DNA from: Mesosutterella faecium
GTDB lineage: Bacteria > Pseudomonadota > Gammaproteobacteria > Burkholderiales > Burkholderiaceae_F
Direction: 5' to 3'
Assembly: GCF_022809315.2 (NCBI RefSeq)
Contig: NZ_JAKZJU020000001.1
Location: 1,054,001-1,118,000, forward strand
DNA: 64,000 bases
Shown: positions 30,167 through 37,670 of the stretch, in pieces
Numbering within the stretch: position 1 is the first letter of the stretch
How the letters are laid out: each line of letters starts with the position of its first letter
Program-made: the position numbers and the translations under genes
Notes under the pieces: generated by a model
Database searches by the model: none
What the model saw: the letters and a program-made list of their open reading frames with translations, nothing else
What the model was told of the DNA's origin: nothing

Positions 30167-30808
30167 TTAAGGCTCAGAGAATTTTTCACTCTGCTTTAGA
30201 AGTTCCTTCAGTTCTTCCGAAGTGGAGCTGACATGGAGCTTTTTGTTTGCGGAGGAACGGTGAGCCTCCACCGTGCGCTCGCTGATGCCAAAGCGCGCCG
30301 CGATTTGCCGGCTGGACAGCCCCTGCGCGACGAGCCTGATGACCTCCCGTTCGCGTTCGGTCAGCAGCGAGAGCCGGTGCATCGCTGAGGCGCTGTCGGT
30401 GACGACAGGGCTTTCCTCAAGGGATTTCCGCACCGCTTTCTCAATGGCGGCCAGCAGCCTCGCGCTGTCGACGGGCTTTTGCAGAAAATGCACGGCCCCC
30501 TCCTGTATCGCCTGCACCGCCATGTCGATGTCGCCGTGTCCCGAAAGGAAAACGACGGGCAGAGTGTTGTTGCGCCTGATCATCTCATGCTGGAGCTCGA
30601 TGCCGCTGATGTCAGGCATCTGGACGTCCAGAATAAGGCAGCCCGGCACGGACGGGCTGTCGTTTCTGAGAAAGTCTTTGGCTGATTTGTAGCCCGCGCT
30701 TTTCCATCCGGCGCAGCCCAGCAGGAATGAGAGGCCTTTTCTGAGGTCCTGCTCGTCATCCACAATCCGGATCAGAGCTTTTTCCTGAATGGCCTTGAGT
30801 TCGTTCAT
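30167..30808 (-). CDS. FixJ-type response regulator
   Basis: 213 aa. A receiver domain (about 10-125) with acidic pocket Asp17/Asp18, phosphorylation site Asp61 in LILDVQMPD, the conserved Thr/Ser in FLSGHGD and Lys in FLQKPV. A LuxR-type helix-turn-helix follows (about 145-200, LTEREREVIRLVAQGLSSRQIA). Its ATGA start overlaps the kinase stop by 4 bp, so the pair is translationally coupled. It should be activated by the adjacent kinase and bind DNA as a dimer at palindromes. It resembles TtrR/FixJ regulators of respiratory genes. Confidence 0.9.
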   Translation of the reverse strand: MNELKAIQEKALIRIVDDEQDLRKGLSFLLGCAGWKSAGYKSAKDFLRNDSPSVPGCLILDVQMPDISGIELQHEMIRRNNTLPVVFLSGHGDIDMAVQAIQEGAVHFLQKPVDSARLLAAIEKAVRKSLEESPVVTDSASAMHRLSLLTEREREVIRLVAQGLSSRQIAARFGISERTVEAHRSSANKKLHVSSTSEELKELLKQSEKFSEP

Positions 30809-32631
30809 GGGACTTGGTTCTCCTTTTCCTGCGGCTTTTGATCCCGGCAGGGAAGTTCGAAGCTTGCCTGAAGCCCGCCGGCGCTCCCGCGCTCGAAGAC
30901 AAGCTTGCTGCCGTAGGCCTCGAGCAGCCCGCGGACGATGGACAGCCCGAATCCCAGCCCCCCGGCCTTCAGGCTGGGGCCTGAGGGTCCCAGTATTTTT
31001 TGGAAGTCCGCGTCAGTCAGAGACGGCCCGTTGTCGATGACAGTGACTCTCACGCAGTCCCCCTGTCTCCGGGTCTGGATCCGGATGGTCGGTTTCATGA
31101 CGGTTTCTGCCGCCTCCCCTGCGTTTTTAAGCAGGTTGAACACCACGCACTCCATCTCCAGCGGATCGACTTTGATCCAGACGTCTGCTGCGGCCAGGTC
31201 TTTCTGAATCAACGGAGGGCGCTTTCGCGAGACCCGGTAATTTTCTATGGTCTGATTCAGGACGGAGGAGAAATGCACCCAGGCGCGCCGGCTGCCGCTT
31301 TTGGCTGTCCTTGCGTACTGCCGTGCATGCTCGACAATGTCGTTGGCCTTCTTCGTCTGCCGTTCGATTTCTTCAAGCGGCTCCTTCAGGTGGTCCTCTG
31401 GGCCGATCACTCCCTTGCCGAGCAGCAGCTTCAGGCCGTCCAGGTAAAAGGAGATGGTTGCAAGCGGCTGCTTCATTTCGTGGGCGAGCATTCCGGAGAC
31501 CTGTCCGAGCGCTCCCATTTTTTGAAGAGCGGCAAGATGCTCGGAGGCTTCCCTCGCTTTTTCCTGCAGATCATTCTGCCTGGCCATCAGGGCCTGCAGC
31601 TGGCTGGTCCGGCGCCTGACGAGGTAGCCCGTCCGCCAGGAATGGAGAATCAGCCCCAGCAGCGACAGCAGCGCCAGCGCGAGCGCCGGCCAGTATTCAT
31701 TCAGAAAGCGCGTCAGGGTCCAGTCCCGAAGATACCTGTACTTGCCAAGCCTCAGGCTCCTGTAAAGGCGGTCCACATGCAGATAGTCTGTGGCGACGCC
31801 CCAGGTGTTCCCATGCTCATCGGGGGGCATATTCATGATCGCCAGGGCGGCTGTCCGCGCCTCTTCGGGCGTCAGCCGGCCGGTTGCCGTGACAGTCCAG
31901 TCGGGATAGAGTTCGGTCGATCGAACGCAGGCTTCGCCTTTCTGCGTCTGAGAGTTGATGACGCGCAGCTTCGAGGCAAGCTCAGGGTGGCTTTTGGCCC
32001 ATGTCTCAAAGTAGCAGAGCCGCGCAAAGGCTGCGTCAGTCTGCCCCGTAGCGACCGAGGCCAGGGCTTTCCCGAGGGCGGCTCCCCCGCCGACGAATTT
32101 CATTGATGAAAAGAAATTCTCCCAGTCGGCGTCTATTTTTGCGATTTCCCCCATGGGAACGTGAAATCCCGTGAATGCGACGGGCGTGTTCGCAATCAGG
32201 CTCTTTCCTTTGAGGTCTTTCAGGGTCCGCAGGGAGGAATCCCTGCGGACAAAAATGGCGGCACCTTCGCTGTGATTGGGATCCGGGTAGCTTTTCGTGA
32301 CGAGAGTTCCCAGGACCCGGGTTCCGTGTTTCTGCTGGATCCGGAAGGACTGCCCGGCGCTCGTGATGAAGATGTCGATTTTGCCGTCATTGATCGCTTC
32401 GTCCAGCCGGTAAACGGGGATTTCGACCATTTGGACGTCGCGGTCGCGAAACCCTTTTCTCAGGCTCTCCACGGTGGACTCAATGATCGTTGCCTTTTCG
32501 GTCGGCCGGACGAAATCGACATTTCCGACGAAAAGAGGCTTTCCTGCGGCTTTGCAGGACGAAATTGAGAGCAGGTCCGCAAAGATGAGGAAAGCGCTGA
32601 AAATGATTTTTAACGATGTCCGTGTCGTCAC
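30805..32631 (-). CDS. Sensor histidine kinase with periplasmic solute-binding domain (TtrS-like)
   Basis: 608 aa. A signal segment (about 1-25) ends in ISSC, which fits a lipobox. A PhnD-like periplasmic binding domain follows (about 30-280, FVRPTEKATIIESTVESLRKGF). One membrane helix (LALALLSLLGLIL, about 320-340) leads to a coiled coil and HisKA domain with MLAHEMKQPLATI. The ATPase domain has N-box NLLKNAGEA, DNGPS and GGLGFGLSIVRG. It probably senses a small extracellular ligand, perhaps the substrate of the neighbouring reductase, and phosphorylates the FixJ-type regulator. It overlaps the cytochrome gene by 4 bp. Confidence 0.9.
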   Translation of the reverse strand: MTTRTSLKIIFSAFLIFADLLSISSCKAAGKPLFVGNVDFVRPTEKATIIESTVESLRKGFRDRDVQMVEIPVYRLDEAINDGKIDIFITSAGQSFRIQQKHGTRVLGTLVTKSYPDPNHSEGAAIFVRRDSSLRTLKDLKGKSLIANTPVAFTGFHVPMGEIAKIDADWENFFSSMKFVGGGAALGKALASVATGQTDAAFARLCYFETWAKSHPELASKLRVINSQTQKGEACVRSTELYPDWTVTATGRLTPEEARTAALAIMNMPPDEHGNTWGVATDYLHVDRLYRSLRLGKYRYLRDWTLTRFLNEYWPALALALLSLLGLILHSWRTGYLVRRRTSQLQALMARQNDLQEKAREASEHLAALQKMGALGQVSGMLAHEMKQPLATISFYLDGLKLLLGKGVIGPEDHLKEPLEEIERQTKKANDIVEHARQYARTAKSGSRRAWVHFSSVLNQTIENYRVSRKRPPLIQKDLAAADVWIKVDPLEMECVVFNLLKNAGEAAETVMKPTIRIQTRRQGDCVRVTVIDNGPSLTDADFQKILGPSGPSLKAGGLGFGLSIVRGLLEAYGSKLVFERGSAGGLQASFELPCRDQKPQEKENQVP

Positions 32632-32984
32632 TTTTTAGGCATTGTGAACTGGAACTTGTGGCACTGGCTGCAGACGAGCTTGTCGGCCTTGTGGCCCTGA
32701 TGGCATTCACGGCAGTCCAGTTCTCCCAGGTGATTGTCGTGAACGTTGTTGGGCTTCATGTCCTTGGTGCGCTCCTTCAGCTTCGAGTAGTCGCCGTGGC
32801 AGCTCTGGCATTGCGCCGTCTTGACCTTTTTGGCGGGCGGATTTTCCTTGTGACAGCCGGAACACTGCACCCCGGCCTTGGCGTGCCGGTCTGCCAGGAA
32901 GGGGCCTTCGCCGGCGTAGGAAGGCATCGACAGGGACAGGGCCAGGGCCGCTGACAGGGCCAAAGCGGAAATTTTTGAAATCAT
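32628..32984 (-). CDS. Periplasmic tetrahaem cytochrome c
   Basis: 118 aa. A signal peptide (residues 1-24, cleavage after SYA) precedes a small domain with four CxxCH haem sites: CSGCH (41), CQSCH (59), CRECH (91) and CSQCH (105). Extra histidines (34, 82, 85, 98) can act as distal ligands. This matches the tetrahaem domain of flavocytochrome c fumarate reductases. Here it is a separate protein that should pass electrons from the quinone pool side to the exported flavoprotein encoded just upstream. Confidence 0.92.
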   Translation of the reverse strand: MISKISALALSAALALSLSMPSYAGEGPFLADRHAKAGVQCSGCHKENPPAKKVKTAQCQSCHGDYSKLKERTKDMKPNNVHDNHLGELDCRECHQGHKADKLVCSQCHKFQFTMPKK

Positions 32985-33015
32985 ACTGGCAGTCTTATAG
33001 GTAGGAAAAGGGTGA

Positions 33016-33050
33016 GGGGATTAAACCGCGGAAAGGCCGATTTAATCCCC
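33016..33050 (-). repeat. Intercistronic hairpin before the cytochrome gene
   Basis: A perfect 10-bp stem GGGGATTAAA/TTTAATCCCC with no T-tract, between the flavoprotein and cytochrome genes. It may set differential mRNA stability within the operon. Confidence 0.55.
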
Positions 33051-33073
33051 GGTGCTGTTCAGTTCAGCTTCAG

Positions 33074-33834
33074 TCAGGCTTTTTTGGCCCGGGCAGCGGC
33101 GCTGCAGGCGGACTCGCGCCCCCAGATGATCGCCGCGCAGAGCTGGGAGCCGCCGATGTAGTCGTTGTAAAGGAGGCCGCCGATCGCGTTGCCTGCCGCA
33201 TAAAGGCCCGGAATCGGCCTGCCTTCAGTGTTGAGCACTTCGCCTTTGAGGGAAATCTTCGGGCCGCCGAAAGTGGCCGTCATTCCGCCCTGGAACGGGA
33301 AAGCGCGGAACGGAGGCTTGACCAGCAGCCGCGCGCCTTTGAGCGTATTGGGAGGAGTGAGCGTGCTGCCCTTTCCGGCCTTGATGGCGGCGTTGTACTG
33401 ATCCACCACTTTCACCAGAGTCGCTTCCGGAATGTGAGCGTTTCTCGCGAGTTCGGCGATCGTGTTCCCGGTGTAGATCGGGGCGTGGTTTCTCTGATAG
33501 CGGTTGATGCGGTCCTGGACCGTCGAAATGTTCGTCACCTGGTCGTCAATGATGATGAAGGCCCAGTTGTTCGGTATGAGCTTCGGCATGGCCTTGGCGA
33601 CATACACGTAGGTGTTGACCTCGTCGATGAAGCGCGTGCCGTCCTGTTTGACCAGAATGCCGTAATTAACCATGATGGACGGATTGGCGCGCGTCGGGCC
33701 GTGAATCGGACCGCCGTGGAACTGATCCATATTGACATACATGGGGTTGAAAGGCTCGGTGAGCGTGATGTTCTCGCCCGTGATGCAGGTCGATCCGCGG
33801 ATCGGCATCCAGGCGACGTCCCCGCCCATATAGC
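33074..33834 (-). pseudogene. 3' part of the IS21-interrupted flavoprotein gene
   Basis: Encodes the C-terminal 251 residues of an FAD_binding_2 flavoprotein, from MGGDVAWMPIRG to the stop. It includes DGTRFIDE (substrate-domain arginine region) and the FAD-binding end PGLYAAGNAIGGLLYNDYIGGSQL. It is continuous with the fragment at 36409-37140: removing the IS and one target copy gives ICRY-M-GGDVAW with no frameshift. As it stands, the frame continues 26 codons into the IS end, giving ATG and a hydrophobic stretch at 33910, so a truncated product is possible. FGGPK stands where fumarate reductases have a catalytic histidine. Confidence 0.9.
33827..33834 (+). repeat. IS21 target duplication, left copy
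   Basis: CATATAGC, matching 36409-36416. An 8-bp duplication is within the range of the IS21 family. Confidence 0.88.
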
Positions 33835-33989
33835 TGTTTTGCGACACTAAGGATCCAACCAGAACCGTCAATAAGAAACCAACCAGTGCCGTCACGAAAG
33901 TGAGCGGCATATTTGGCTGAGAGAAGCACTTTTCTCTCTAAAACGACAAAGTCCACGAATATCATTCACGCTCCACTGCAGCCAAACAG

Positions 33990-35582
33990 ATGGAGCAAAC
34001 GCAAATGCTATCCATGGACCAAATTCATCTTATCAAGAAGCTGGCCGCCAGCGGCCGCTCAACCCGAGAAATAGCGAAAATTACAGGATTCAACCGTGAG
34101 ACGGTGATGAAGTACATCAAAAAAGAGGCATCGATTCCTGAGCCTTTCCATAAGGAACGCGCCAAGAAGATCGACTCCTGCCAGCCTTACGTGCTGAATC
34201 TCCTGCAGAGCGACAGCGCTGTTGCCAATCCCAAGCTCAGGCTCACGGCCAAACGCATTCATGAATTGATCAAAACCGGCAGCCTTGCCGCGGATCTGCC
34301 TCCGCTCAATGTATCCATCCGGACCGTCGAGCGCATGGTCAAAGACATTCGAAGCTCACTGCGCCAGGCCCAGAGCCGCCAGCATCTCAAGCTGCTCCAT
34401 CAGCCAGGCAAGGCACAGCTTGATTTCGGTGAAATAACAATGCTCAGTGAAAACGGAGAAAGCCGCCATTACATTTTGGTGATGAGCTTCCCGCATTCAA
34501 ATTTTCGGCTTGCGTACGCCCTGCCGGCACAAAACTTTGAGTGCCTGGCCCACGGCCTGGCGGAGATGTTCAAGCGCATAGGGCGCGTCCCGGTGATCAT
34601 TCGCTGCGACAACATGAGCACAGCCGTCACTAAAGTCATTCGCCGCAAGAATCTGGGCAATGGGCTTTGCAACCACGACGCAAAGGATCATCCGCGCCAG
34701 CTGACGGAAAACTTTCTCACCCTGATGACGGCTTACGGTTTTGACGCGGAGTTCTGCAATCCTGCTTCAGGCAACGAGAAGGGTTCAGTGGAAAATGCCG
34801 TCGGGTGGGTGAGAAGGAATTTTTTCTGCCCGCTGCGTTCGTTCAACGGCAACTACGATGCCCTGAACGCAGAACTGGCGGAATTTTGCTTCAACGAGGC
34901 CAGGAAACCTCACTATCTGCACAAACCCAAGTCAATTGATGCCCTTTTCAAGGAGGATCTGGCGGCAATGAATCCGCTGCCGGACGCCCCACGCGAAGTG
35001 ACTCACTCCTGGGGCCGGGCAACGGTGACGGAGGACTGCCGCATCAAGGTCGATACGAATTCCTATCAGGTCGGCCTGCCGCCTGGGACGAAGACGTTTG
35101 TGAAGAAGTTCTGGAACAAGCTGGCCATCTTCACCGAGGGCGGGCAGCTCGTTTCCGAATACAACCGACAGTACGGAACCCGCAGGGACAGCATCAACTG
35201 GGGCGTGGAACTTGAAATGCTCAGCGAGCGCCCAAGCGCTTTCAACAGCTCTTATCTCCAGTCCGTCTGCCCGCAAAAAGTGTCTGCCTACCTTAAGCAG
35301 CTGACCGCTCCTGGGCGCGGTGTGCTGCTGCGGGCGCTGCGGCAGCGCTTTGTCAAAAGCAGGAACATTGTCAGCGAACTCTCGCTGCTGGAGCTGGCGC
35401 TCGATGTCTATGGCAGCCGCAGCGCTGAAGAAGTTGCTGCCGCCTATCGGGGAGCTGAGGACAAGCTGACCGACAGCATCAAGCCGATGAAAAGCGTGAG
35501 CCATGCCCTCGGGAACATGGATCTGCCGCCGCATAGCTTCTCTGATGTCTGCAAGGAGCTGGAGGGAGGGGCGCATGTCTAA
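33990..35582 (+). CDS. istA: IS21 transposase IstA
   Basis: 530 aa. An N-terminal HTH (STREIAKITGFNRETVMKYI) is followed by a DDE core: Asp in QLDFGEITML, Asp in IIRCDNMSTAV and Glu in GNEKGSVENAVGWV. The C-terminal region resembles other IS21 transposases. Starts at 33990 or at 34005, the latter preceded by GGAG at nine bases, are possible. It overlaps istB by 8 bp. A short GAGAGAA/TTCTCTC hairpin (about 33915-33935) precedes the gene. Confidence 0.93.
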   Translation: MEQTQMLSMDQIHLIKKLAASGRSTREIAKITGFNRETVMKYIKKEASIPEPFHKERAKKIDSCQPYVLNLLQSDSAVANPKLRLTAKRIHELIKTGSLAADLPPLNVSIRTVERMVKDIRSSLRQAQSRQHLKLLHQPGKAQLDFGEITMLSENGESRHYILVMSFPHSNFRLAYALPAQNFECLAHGLAEMFKRIGRVPVIIRCDNMSTAVTKVIRRKNLGNGLCNHDAKDHPRQLTENFLTLMTAYGFDAEFCNPASGNEKGSVENAVGWVRRNFFCPLRSFNGNYDALNAELAEFCFNEARKPHYLHKPKSIDALFKEDLAAMNPLPDAPREVTHSWGRATVTEDCRIKVDTNSYQVGLPPGTKTFVKKFWNKLAIFTEGGQLVSEYNRQYGTRRDSINWGVELEMLSERPSAFNSSYLQSVCPQKVSAYLKQLTAPGRGVLLRALRQRFVKSRNIVSELSLLELALDVYGSRSAEEVAAAYRGAEDKLTDSIKPMKSVSHALGNMDLPPHSFSDVCKELEGGAHV

Positions 35583-36315
35583 GGCCGCTGAAACAGATGC
35601 CCGCATCCGAGAACTTGCTTTAAATCTTAGGCTTGGCGGCACCAGCGTTGTGAAAACCTACAAAGAGATCAGCCTGACCGATCGAGCCGAATTCGTCCTG
35701 CAGCTTTTGCAAAAGCTTTGGGACGCGCGCGTCCGAGATCGTGTCGAGCGTAATCAAGTCAAAGCCGGTCTCCTGCGCACCAAAACACTGGAGAATTTCG
35801 ACTGCAGCTGTCTGGAACTGCCTCGGAATCTTGACCTGGCCTGGTTGACGCAGTGTCGTTTTATTGAGGCTAAGCAGAACCTCATCCTGTTGGGGCACCC
35901 GGGCACTGGCAAGACCCACTTTGCCACAGCGCTTGGCCTGCAGGCCTGCAGGCTGGGCTACAAAGCGCTCTTTAAGCGAATGGCAGTGCTGGTCGAGGAG
36001 CTGTCGTCGGCACACGAGACGGGACAGCTGCCCAGGCTGAAGCGGCGTTTTGAAAAATGCGACCTGCTGGTCATTGACGAATGGGGCTACCTGCCCACCA
36101 ACGTAACGGGCACGCGCCTGCTTTTCGAACTGATTGCCGACTGCTACGAACGGCGCAGCCTGATATTAACGACAAATATGCCGATTCCTGAATGGAACAA
36201 GATCTTTTGCGACGAGCGCCTGCTGATGGCGATGATTGACCGGCTGGCTCATCATGGCTATCTCATTAAACACATGGGTGAAAGCTATCGCTTAAGCCAC
36301 TCGCTGATGAAATAA
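35575..36315 (+). CDS. istB: IS21 helper ATPase IstB
   Basis: 246 aa AAA+ ATPase that selects target DNA and activates IstA. Walker A is GHPGTGKTHFATAL (about residue 105), Walker B is DLLVIDEWGYLP, and sensor 1 Thr-Thr-Asn lies in LILTTNMP. The ATG at 35575 follows GGAGGGAGGGG and overlaps the istA stop. An in-frame start at 35503 would add 24 residues encoded inside istA and is less likely. Confidence 0.94.
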   Translation: MSKAAETDARIRELALNLRLGGTSVVKTYKEISLTDRAEFVLQLLQKLWDARVRDRVERNQVKAGLLRTKTLENFDCSCLELPRNLDLAWLTQCRFIEAKQNLILLGHPGTGKTHFATALGLQACRLGYKALFKRMAVLVEELSSAHETGQLPRLKRRFEKCDLLVIDEWGYLPTNVTGTRLLFELIADCYERRSLILTTNMPIPEWNKIFCDERLLMAMIDRLAHHGYLIKHMGESYRLSHSLMK

Positions 36316-36408
36316 GGACTGGAGGTTCCCATGACATCCTGAAAAAACCAACCAGCTTACGAAGGACTTTGCGTCAAAAAGTGGTTGGTTTTGACTTGAC
36401 GGAACACA

Positions 36409-36416
36409 CATATAGC
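36409..36416 (+). repeat. IS21 target duplication, right copy
   Basis: CATATAGC, identical to 33827-33834. Confidence 0.88.
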
Positions 36417-37140
36417 GGCAGATGAGCTCCTTGTTGTTATGGAAGCCGCCGGTGCACACGATGACGCCGCCTCTGGCCTTGAAGGTCACGAGCTCTTCAT
36501 CCTCGTCGACCGCCTTCACCCCGGTGGCGTGAAGCACCTCGCTGCGGGTGATTTCAATCACCTTGGTGTTGAAGAAGACAGGGATTCCGAGCGCCTTGAC
36601 GCGGTCGAGCATCTGTTTTGCCAGCTGCGCGCCGTGGGGCTTCAGGGGGCCGTCGACCACATGGCCTCTCTGCAGCATGGGCCAGGATTCCTTTTCAAGC
36701 CTGCGGAACTTGATCCCGCACTCGCTGGTCAGCCACTGCACCGCATCTGCGGATTTTTCAACGTACATCTTTGTCAGAGCGGGATCGCCCCGGCCCTGCG
36801 AGACTTTCATCATGTCGGCGTAGAAGGCGTCAAGAGAGTCATTGACCCCTTCCTGCTTTTGAACATAGGTGCCGGCGGCGTTGATGATGCCGCCCGAGAA
36901 GATCGTATTGCCCGAGGGGCGAGGCATTTTGTCCAGAATGCAGACCTTGGCGCCCGCGTTCTTTGCCTCGATCGCGGCTGCCATGCCGGCGCACCCGCAT
37001 CCGATCACAACCACGTCGTAGGTTTCGGTTCTGCCCTTTTCGGCAGCGGATGCGGCGTTGGAAACGGTCGCGGCGCCGGCAGCGGCGGCACCGACCACGC
37101 TCGCCTTGAACAGGCTGCGGCGTGAAATTTCTCTTGTCAT
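36409..37140 (-). pseudogene. 5' part of the IS21-interrupted, Tat-exported flavoprotein gene
   Basis: Encodes residues 1-244 of a periplasmic FAD-dependent reductase or dehydrogenase. The ATG at 37138-37140 follows GGAGAGAAG. A Tat signal (SRRSLFKASVVGAAA, ending SNAASAA) precedes the dinucleotide fold YDVVVIGCGCAGMAAAIEAK and the FAD-family segment RPSGNTIFSGGIINAAGTY. The frame reads through the IS junction for about 39 foreign codons to a stop at 36292. Intact, the protein would be 494 aa. The family includes fumarate, urocanate and similar reductases and tricarballylate dehydrogenase; the substrate is unknown. It is the first gene of a four-gene operon with the cytochrome, kinase and regulator. 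Confidence 0.9.
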
Positions 37141-37204: not shown

Positions 37205-37216
37205 GTTCGTACGAAC
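37205..37216. promoter_or_regulatory. Perfect palindrome upstream of the flavoprotein gene
   Basis: GTTCGTACGAAC, centred about 70 bp before the flavoprotein ATG. It shares TTCGTnCGAA with the palindrome upstream of the neighbouring hicB-like gene and is a likely operator. Confidence 0.55.
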
Positions 37217-37328: not shown

Positions 37329-37670
37329 TTAATCGCCGCCGGAGGCGGGCAGCCCGGACAGAAGGCTTTTCTCGCTTGCCCTGAATAAGTTTGAGGCCTC
37401 GACGATCTCCGCGTCGAACGAGTCGACGGGACGGACCAGAACCCCCTGGCGTGCGACTCCCGCGCGCTCGAGGGCGCTCAGAATCTCTTTTTTCTTCATG
37501 GCCGGCGGCAGCGGGCTGCGGAGCTTCTGCAGGCATCTGCGCAGCGCGACGGCCGCATTGTCGTAGGCCTCCTGAATCGTGGCGCCGAAGCTCGCAAGCC
37601 CTGGAATGTCGGGAAAAGTGACGCGGTACCCCTTGTCGGTCGGCAGGAAAGCTGCAAGATATCTGGGCAT
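37329..37670 (-). CDS. HicB-like protein without a HicA partner
   Basis: 113 aa. The N-terminal half (YLAAFLPTDKGYRVTFPDIPGLASFGATIQEAYDNA-type pattern, residues 4-40) is the partial RNase H fold of HicB antitoxins. It is followed by PLPPAMKKKEILSAL. The tail lacks a recognisable ribbon-helix-helix or HTH domain. A HicA toxin gene normally lies next to it, but none is visible on either side within about 130 bp upstream or 190 bp downstream. It may be a remnant or a stand-alone HicB-fold protein. A TAATAT box at 37707-37712 and an overlapping palindrome lie upstream. Confidence 0.75.
   Translation of the reverse strand: MPRYLAAFLPTDKGYRVTFPDIPGLASFGATIQEAYDNAAVALRRCLQKLRSPLPPAMKKKEILSALERAGVARQGVLVRPVDSFDAEIVEASNLFRASEKSLLSGLPASGGD

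Follow-up and report, generated by a model that had tools for sequence, protein, structure and literature searches.

A putative acceptor-responsive respiration operon with a PhnD-type sensor kinase and a reductase gene interrupted by an IS21-family element in Mesosutterella faecium

A stretch of 64,000 nucleotides of the Mesosutterella faecium genome (contig NZ_JAKZJU020000001.1, positions 1,054,001 to 1,118,000; hereafter "the window") contains an operon on the minus strand. Its four products, listed from the right-hand end, are a flavoprotein with a FAD_binding_2 domain, a tetrahaem cytochrome, a sensor kinase and a regulator of FixJ type. The reading that we favour, with a probability of about 0.62, is that of an acceptor-inducible respiration operon in which a self-sensing kinase would act through a regulator placed at a palindrome, and the product under control would be an FAD reductase that reduces C=C bonds. 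Gene order, domains, motifs, signs of selection, frequent pairing of such kinases with FAD reductases and a shared palindrome carry this reading, and all of them are direct observations. In the present strain the reductase at this locus is not intact because its gene is cut by an IS21-family element.

Operon layout and gene products

The initial annotation had proposed the order flavoprotein, cytochrome, kinase, regulator with two 4-bp overlaps, and gene coordinates and Pfam domains agree with it: cytochrome and kinase overlap at 32628-32631, kinase and regulator at 30805-30808. Likewise supported is the proximity of a Tat (twin-arginine translocation)-type FAD reductase and a tetrahaem cytochrome to a two-component pair whose sensor has a periplasmic solute-binding domain. 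The flavoprotein had been taken for one gene; its reading frame is split in two by the IS21-family element. The features are as follows:

30167-30808, minus strand: FixJ/TtrR-like response regulator, 213 amino acids, receiver plus GerE/LuxR helix-turn-helix (Pfam Response_reg 89 bits, GerE 61.8 bits)
30805-32631, minus strand: sensor histidine kinase, 608 amino acids (Pfam Phosphonate-bd 79.6 bits, HisKA, HATPase_c)
32628-32984, minus strand: tetrahaem c-type cytochrome, 118 amino acids (Cytochrom_c3_2 67.8 bits; four CXXCH)
33074-33834, minus strand: C-terminal part of the FAD reductase, 252 codons (33077-33832) plus stop, FAD_binding_2 profile positions 277-403
33827-33834: left copy of the 8-bp target-site duplication CATATAGC
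33835-36408, plus strand (opposite to the operon): IS21-family element, istA 33990-35582, istB 35503-36315
36409-36416: right copy of the 8-bp target-site duplication CATATAGC
36409-37140, minus strand: N-terminal part of the FAD reductase, 243 in-frame codons (36412-37140), FAD_binding_2 profile positions 1-210
37205-37216: perfect palindrome GTTCGTACGAAC, candidate response-regulator operator, 64 bp before the reductase start

The N-terminal part of the reductase carries a Tat-type signal, MTREISRRSLFKASVVGAAAAGAATVSNAASA, and the start at 37140 is a Tat-type start, MTREISRRSLFK, common to M. porci. The C-terminal part bears the motifs TATFGG and DYIGG and is 98% identical to its M. porci counterpart over 252 residues. 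With the flavocytochrome c model TIGR01813 (cut-off 285.45 bits) the halves score 159.8 bits (model positions 1-202) and 97.2 bits. The cytochrome, whose N-terminus resembles a signal peptide as judged by eye, has its CXXCH motifs at residues 41, 59, 91 and 105 and reaches 42.8 of the 180 bits of the CctA model. In the kinase, a hydrophobic signal or transmembrane stretch at about residues 5-25 (hydropathy above 1.8) is followed by the PhnD-like periplasmic domain (about 30-312) and by a second hydrophobic stretch (about 314-332) with a hydropathy of only 1.67; HisKA residue His384 is invariant in 20 kinases.

PhnD-type kinases beside FAD reductases are a family trait

The operon had been put forward as the best candidate for an undescribed system. 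The arrangement is, however, family-wide. The genome, of about 2.6 Mb, has 11 strong PhnD-like domain matches (at least 73 bits), all in kinases of the window type, and 8 of these 11 loci have an FAD reductase nearby. Besides the window, an FAD reductase gene lies within 5 kb of 7 of the 10 other kinases (loci L003-L006, L009, L011 and L012); none was found at that distance from the kinases of L007, L008 and L010. The same four-gene order is seen at one other locus of this genome, L012. At L005 (L005:7643-9454; contig C1:2113729-2115411) a TAG interrupts the kinase frame, which makes L005 a second damaged locus of the type. Genome-wide, 44 long FAD_binding_2 matches were counted besides the split one, together with 12 Cytochrom_c3_2 matches. 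Another FAD_binding_2 match, at C1:2019411-2020700, has one internal TAG.

The wider comparison covered 115 distinct kinases, drawn from the present genome and from relatives within its family, with duplicates counted once. Loci were picked by similarity to the window kinase or, in the own genome, by a PhnD-domain match, while L091-L110 were picked by similarity to the window reductase; kinases that were split or shorter than 520 amino acids, such as those of L005, L059, L072 and L075, were dropped. An FAD-reductase profile match was found within 5 kb of 95 of the 115 kinases (in 93 cases with a frame of at least 420 amino acids, the split window reductase not being among them), a number that describes the family and is biased as a rate because similarity guided the choice of loci. 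For 53 kinases the gene of a c3-type cytochrome with three or more CXXCH lies within 5 kb, and for 107 a regulator lies within 600 bp. Reductase, cytochrome, kinase and regulator follow one another in this order at 13 of the 115 loci, window and M. porci included, so that the arrangement is more than chance. The four-gene order, for which the initial annotation had suggested a search in other genomes, does exist elsewhere and is not unique to the window. Seven of these 13 loci, among them the window and M. porci, have a reductase of the window class, defined by similarity to the C-terminal part that holds TATFGG and [DN]Y.

The sensor domain and its relationship to TtrS

The window kinase presents the traits of PhnD-type sensor kinases, with Phosphonate-bd ahead of HisKA and HATPase_c and a regulator adjacent. 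A PhnD-like sensor had been considered a difference from the tetrathionate sensor TtrS; this distinction falls, as the sensing domain of TtrS is itself described as PhnD-like in PMC5408782. According to the same paper, 131 of 154 non-redundant PhnD-type kinases lie beside a regulator. Because TtrS is PhnD-like and most such kinases lie beside a regulator, the architecture is of a known kind. TtrSR and the ThsSR/TtrSR sensors of Shewanella share with the window a PhnD-like kinase and a regulator beside a respiratory reductase (PMC5408782). TtrSR differs in having a three-gene tetrathionate reductase cluster where the window operon has an FAD protein and a tetrahaem cytochrome. The TtrS model aligns to kinase residues 53-580 with 173.3 of the 750 bits needed and the TtrR model gives 154 of 290 bits with the regulator, so that both proteins fall below the curated equivalog scores for TtrSR; the FixJ model of NCBIfam (179.8 bits with the regulator) does not reach its cut-off either.

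The solved structures nearest to a profile of 20 sensor domains are ArrX (E 4.9e-13) and AioX (2e-8). In AioX the oxyanion is contacted by Ser161, Ser163 and His192 (PMC5908839). The SNS of AioX aligns with AFT in the window (family consensus aFt), both serines thus being replaced. AioX His192 aligns by a gap at a consensus position that is not histidine, and the window has no histidine there; some relatives, such as L068 and L080, have one near that position. By this alignment, an organic rather than an oxyanion ligand would fit.

Sensor divergence follows reductase divergence

In 94 kinase-reductase pairs, the distance between reductases correlates with the distance between sensor domains (r 0.53) and between kinase domains (r 0.44); the partial correlation is 0.36 for the sensor given the kinase domain, and 0.14 for the kinase domain given the sensor. 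None of 500 permutations, in which relatedness of loci was left uncorrected, reaches either plain correlation or the sensor partial. Both in these distances and in the reductase tree, the window reductase is represented by its C-terminal part only. In these comparisons the sensor domain keeps closer step with the reductase than the kinase domain does, which supports self-sensing for the kinase family as a whole.

A palindrome upstream of reductase genes

The palindrome GTTCGTACGAAC is conserved in M. porci, and no other exact copy exists in the genome. It fits the pattern TWCGTACGWA, which is found before other reductase genes: of 14 sites with this pattern in the fetched loci, 12 are no more than 500 bp away from the start of a reductase gene. 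In L074 the listed reductase start is too far upstream, and a Tat-type start lies 101 bp after the site; the remaining site, in L127, is near a contig end.

Related loci carry TACGTACGTA at a like position. Within one mismatch, TACGTACGTA stands before 16 of 164 reductase starts, some of which share one site (L126, L129); control palindromes, of which up to 25 were drawn at random, averaged 1.36 such starts and never exceeded 4. Other gene types seldom have it: 3 of 120 kinase starts, 1 of 59 cytochrome starts and 0 of 122 regulator starts. Counted as distinct sites (24 within one mismatch), 12 are before reductase starts, one is at a cytochrome gene and one at a kinase gene. All 11 exact sites in 8 whole genomes fall at fetched loci, and 10 of them precede a reductase start (for one of these, at L128, a Tat-like start was used in place of the listed start); the eleventh is near a contig end, beside a kinase. 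Since 7 of the 8 genomes were already known to hold a site, what this search tests is whether the rest of each genome is free of sites.

By sheer number the sites do not exceed every control: 14 were counted against 0 to 15 for seven control words, and in the search of 8 genomes a control word had 8 sites against 11. Only the position of the palindrome is telling. FixJ proteins bind GTAMGTAG-like words, with which the palindrome would agree. A promoter scan was of no use, as it yielded one promoter-like site, on the plus strand, against 2.0 expected. One of the 11 exact sites belongs to the own genome, where a gene (L176:2277-3856) encodes a wider-class reductase with the exact TACGTACGTA site 88 bp upstream and no adjacent PhnD kinase; it is possible that this reductase is controlled from elsewhere.

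Observations that weigh against a self-sensing operon

The following observations speak against the reading that we favour:

(i). The structure prediction of the sensor, made from a two-sequence alignment (window and M. porci), had a mean pLDDT (predicted local distance difference test) of 34.1, which is unusable, and gave no pocket model.

(ii). After M. porci, the nearest kin of the window kinase and regulator are those of two congeners, G001/G003 (kinase 57%, regulator 61-62%), and the reductase of these loci is 23% identical to that of the window; one of two tested passes the flavocytochrome c cut-off. The nearest kin of the window reductase are G044 and G030 (77%), whose sensors are only 36-38% identical. 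In the trees, the reductase groups with L069/L074 (99) and the kinase with L052/L053 (100/100), so that the nearest kin differ. Part of the gap between sensor and reductase identities is expected because sensors evolve faster than reductases throughout.

(iii). A PhnD-type kinase lies within 5 kb of 12 of 23 close reductase relatives (at least 57% identity over the C-terminal part); for the remaining 11, the stretch that was fetched shows none. Near 10 of these 11 there is a member of one and the same LysR-type cluster (one member, that of L093, was run against Pfam). One may think that the same enzyme class is possibly under two kinds of control.

(iv). The window palindrome differs from TACGTACGTA by two symmetrical bases, and 10 of the 24 distinct sites are at none of the four gene types.

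(v). The M. porci reductase (L017:6075-7558) has no insertion but shifts frame near residue 64. The cause would be either another lesion, independent of the first, or a mistake in the assembly.

As side observations, the reductase relatives that lack a PhnD kinase in the fetched stretch and have a LysR-type gene nearby are those of L091-L103 (all but L098), and a LysR-type gene of a different cluster occurs at the kinase-linked loci L059, L078, L080 and L082.

The likeliest alternative, which we nevertheless consider doubtful, is a mixed origin: the operon may be a chance union of a reductase-cytochrome module and a kinase-regulator module taken from another reductase, in which case the sensor ligand would differ from the substrate. 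The divergent kinships listed above speak for such a union, the kinase and regulator being closest to those beside an FccA-type reductase and the window reductase having its closest kin in other loci. The initial annotation had named pairing of the kinase domain with an unrelated reductase in most genomes as a refutation, and the company of the closest kinases outside M. porci bears this out in part. Furthermore, the kinase tree requires 6 changes to accommodate the kinases of the window reductase class; with shuffled labels, however, the average is 9.8. Recurrence of the four-gene order with the window reductase class, the overall tracking of reductases by sensors, and the maintenance of the four genes together under purifying selection also argue against a chance union. 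The cytochrome, 53-63% identical in five loci of the same class and 48-50% in L052/L053, leans towards the kin of the reductase, and seems a weaker witness for the joining of modules.

Selection on the operon genes

Another explanation is that the whole operon is decaying in the lineage and has no present function. We regard it as unlikely. The reductase is split in the present strain and frame-shifted in the M. porci assembly, as a dead remnant could be; the latter change, however, could be an assembly error, and the frames of cytochrome, kinase and regulator are unbroken in both window and M. porci. In addition, the ratio of nonsynonymous to synonymous substitution rates (dN/dS) against M. 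porci is low in all four genes: 0.031 in the C-terminal part of the reductase, 0.047 in its N-terminal part from residue 65 on, 0.086 in the cytochrome, 0.095 in the regulator and 0.149 in the kinase. Residues 1-64 of the reductase were excluded because the M. porci frame changes near residue 64. As the two parts of the reductase have the lowest values among the operon genes, we infer that the reductase gene was under strong purifying selection until recently and that its knock-out is fresh.

Active site and substrate of the reductase

By sequence, the reductase belongs to the same FAD_binding_2 family as FccA and UrdA (PDB 1qo8, 1qjd, 6t85). These are the best PDB relatives of the intact orthologue in L074 (E about 1e-56), and the same orthologue scores 279.1 bits with the flavocytochrome c model TIGR01813, below its cut-off of 285.45. 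One could thus think of a fumarate- or urocanate-type flavocytochrome c reductase with its cytochrome on a separate gene, a possibility that also has in its favour the conservation of the R402-type catalytic arginine. It is nonetheless quite unlikely, as the positions of FccA H365, E378, H504 and R544, which together with Arg402 we take to be substrate-clamp and catalytic residues, hold other residues in the window, and TATFGG and [DN]Y stand where FccA has HHTMGG and NRLGG. In short, Arg402 is kept without the remainder of the FccA/UrdA clamp (His504/Arg544-type). The cytochrome gene, separate in the window operon, is a further difference. A substrate taken from the nearest PDB relatives was rejected on account of the clamp residues. 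Because the R402-type arginine is the only one shared among the fumarate-reductase residues compared, an organic acceptor is plausible from the sequence. Separate flavoprotein and tetrahaem cytochrome genes are also found in the methacrylate reductase Mrd of Geobacter (PMC4427408), a likeness seen in gene arrangement.

Within the window class, 50 of 51 reductases carry TATFGG and 45 of the 51 the [DN]Y word; of 98 other reductases none has TATFGG, and 27 have HHxMGG. These counts describe the class and are no independent test, since similarity to the motif-bearing part is what defined it.

Resemblance is closer to the active-site words of TcuA, the tricarballylate dehydrogenase (NF006130). Two TcuA homologues have TFTFGG or TFAFGG, plus FYxNY, at the TATFGG and [DN]Y positions, so that words of TcuA type (T-x-[TA]FGG and [DN]Y) are present in the window class; the correspondence extends to TF[TA]FGG/TATFGG, FYxNY/[FY]x[DN]Y and RG[ST]-x3-TG[ED]. 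The two homologues differ in being 30-32% identical to L069 and in lacking a Tat-type start, and the intact orthologue scores 263.4 of the 369 bits of the TcuA model.

Tat-type aconitases beside related kinases

Aconitase genes adjoin PhnD-type kinases in nine loci (L010, L054, L055, L056, L058, L061, L066, L072 and L073). The one in the own genome (L010:4818-7310; C2:127820-130309) is its sole full-length aconitase gene, as the other two PF00330 matches are frames of about 500 amino acids. All nine aconitases read have a Tat-type start, SRRxLL, and the four that were checked have the cysteine words that we take as those of iron-sulphur aconitase. At 4 of the 9 loci the neighbours also include a wider-class reductase and a cytochrome that bears three or four CXXCH. 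Such aconitase genes are carried by 7 of 71 genomes searched, nine genes in all, eight of them among the nine read.

The ninth gene, in G019, has a Tat-type start and adjoins a reductase with HHTMGG and NRLGG, that is, of FccA/UrdA type, which counts against a link with aconitate; the same can be said of L066, where the reductase nearest the aconitase belongs to another class. At the fetched loci of the window reductase class no full-length aconitase was found, and L100 gave one weak match of 469 residues. At L177:6044-8410, the aconitase gene with a Tat-type start lies beside an FAD reductase.

Because the active site resembles that of TcuA and Tat-signal aconitases lie beside related kinases, an aconitate-like (tricarboxylate) substrate may be tentatively suggested for the window reductase class; the G019 counter-example and the lack of an aconitase in the window class keep this suggestion on the less probable side. 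Among the matches listed in a search of openly licensed papers, none of the extracts dealt with an exported aconitase.

The IS21-family insertion

The element has the traits of the IS21 (insertion sequence 21) family: istA and istB score above cut-off (NF033546, 205.6 bits; NF038214, 220.5 bits), inverted repeats lie near the ends and a short target duplication is present. One second copy, 100% identical, exists in the genome, on contig C2, where the flanking repeat is another one, of 5 bp as judged by eye. Comparison of both copies placed the ends (TG...CA) at 33835 and 36408. In M. porci (L017, the same stretch as G004; kinase 94% identical) the halves of the reductase join residue for residue and there is no insert. 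Since both halves continue each other uninterrupted there, the insertion is, from the sequence, a simple transposition into one gene. An assembly artefact is conceivable in a three-contig assembly with two identical copies of the element, and is most improbable in view of flanks that form one contiguous gene in M. porci and of an 8-bp duplication that is a transposition footprint and differs from the repeat of the other copy.

Other observations concern the surroundings and the assembly. Just upstream of the operon, at 37332-37670, a small open reading frame gives a borderline match to a HicB-like antitoxin (27.3 bits, cut-off 27). Words at C1:2326691 and 2330138 recur with the same spacing at C3:14024 and 17471, and a word at C1:19597 recurs at C3:40845. 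By its appearance, C3 is a redundant contig that spans the two ends of C1.

Proposed mechanism and biological meaning

The direction of electron flow, the ligand, the substrate and the binding of the regulator to the palindrome are deduced in the following model of the acceptor-inducible operon. The membrane kinase would sense a small organic acceptor in the periplasm through its PhnD-type solute-binding domain and would phosphorylate the FixJ-type regulator, which would switch the operon on from the palindrome with its TTCGTACGAA core, some 65 bp ahead of the reductase start. Electrons would reach the tetrahaem cytochrome from a quinol-oxidising protein of NapC/NirT type that is encoded elsewhere (the genome has one gene of this family), and the cytochrome would pass them to the Tat-exported FAD reductase. 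Reduction of a C=C bond would take place by means of the conserved active-site arginine, with the substrate held without the fumarate/urocanate clamp; our best guess is a tricarboxylate such as aconitate. After the recent IS21 insertion, the present strain is left with cytochrome, kinase and regulator and no intact reductase at the locus.

A broader picture can be drawn, more speculative still than the aconitate-like substrate. Mesosutterella and its relatives might possess a regulon of PhnD-kinase/FixJ pairs acting at TACGTACGTA-type palindromes ahead of genes for periplasmic FAD reductases. In one branch, an aconitase exported by Tat would produce aconitate, which a TcuA-like reductase would turn into tricarballylate: aconitate derived from citrate would be respired outside the cytoplasm, with a c3-type cytochrome driving the reductase. 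The window operon would be a member of this active-site class, with aconitate or a close relative as substrate. Of greater interest than the window operon by itself are the putative wider regulon and the aconitases with a Tat-type start.

Little and colleagues are said to have described in 2024 reductase arsenals in gut Burkholderiaceae such as Sutterella, with many periplasmic FAD reductases per genome. The 44 long FAD_binding_2 matches found here resemble such arsenals, to which the coupling with PhnD-type kinases and the shared palindrome are added. Among the matches listed from the openly licensed literature, none of the extracts dealt with PhnD kinases controlling FAD reductases. We know of no substrate for most respiratory FAD reductases of Sutterella relatives, which have dozens each. 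If each sensor recognises the acceptor of its reductase, the sensor and the shared palindrome offer a way in: reporter strains could show which gut metabolite induces which reductase. The reductase split by the IS element is a natural knock-out that would allow work on the sensor separately from the enzyme. As for the exported aconitase, if active in the periplasm it would be an enzyme of the tricarboxylic acid cycle in an unexpected place, and would suggest respiration of citrate-derived aconitate.

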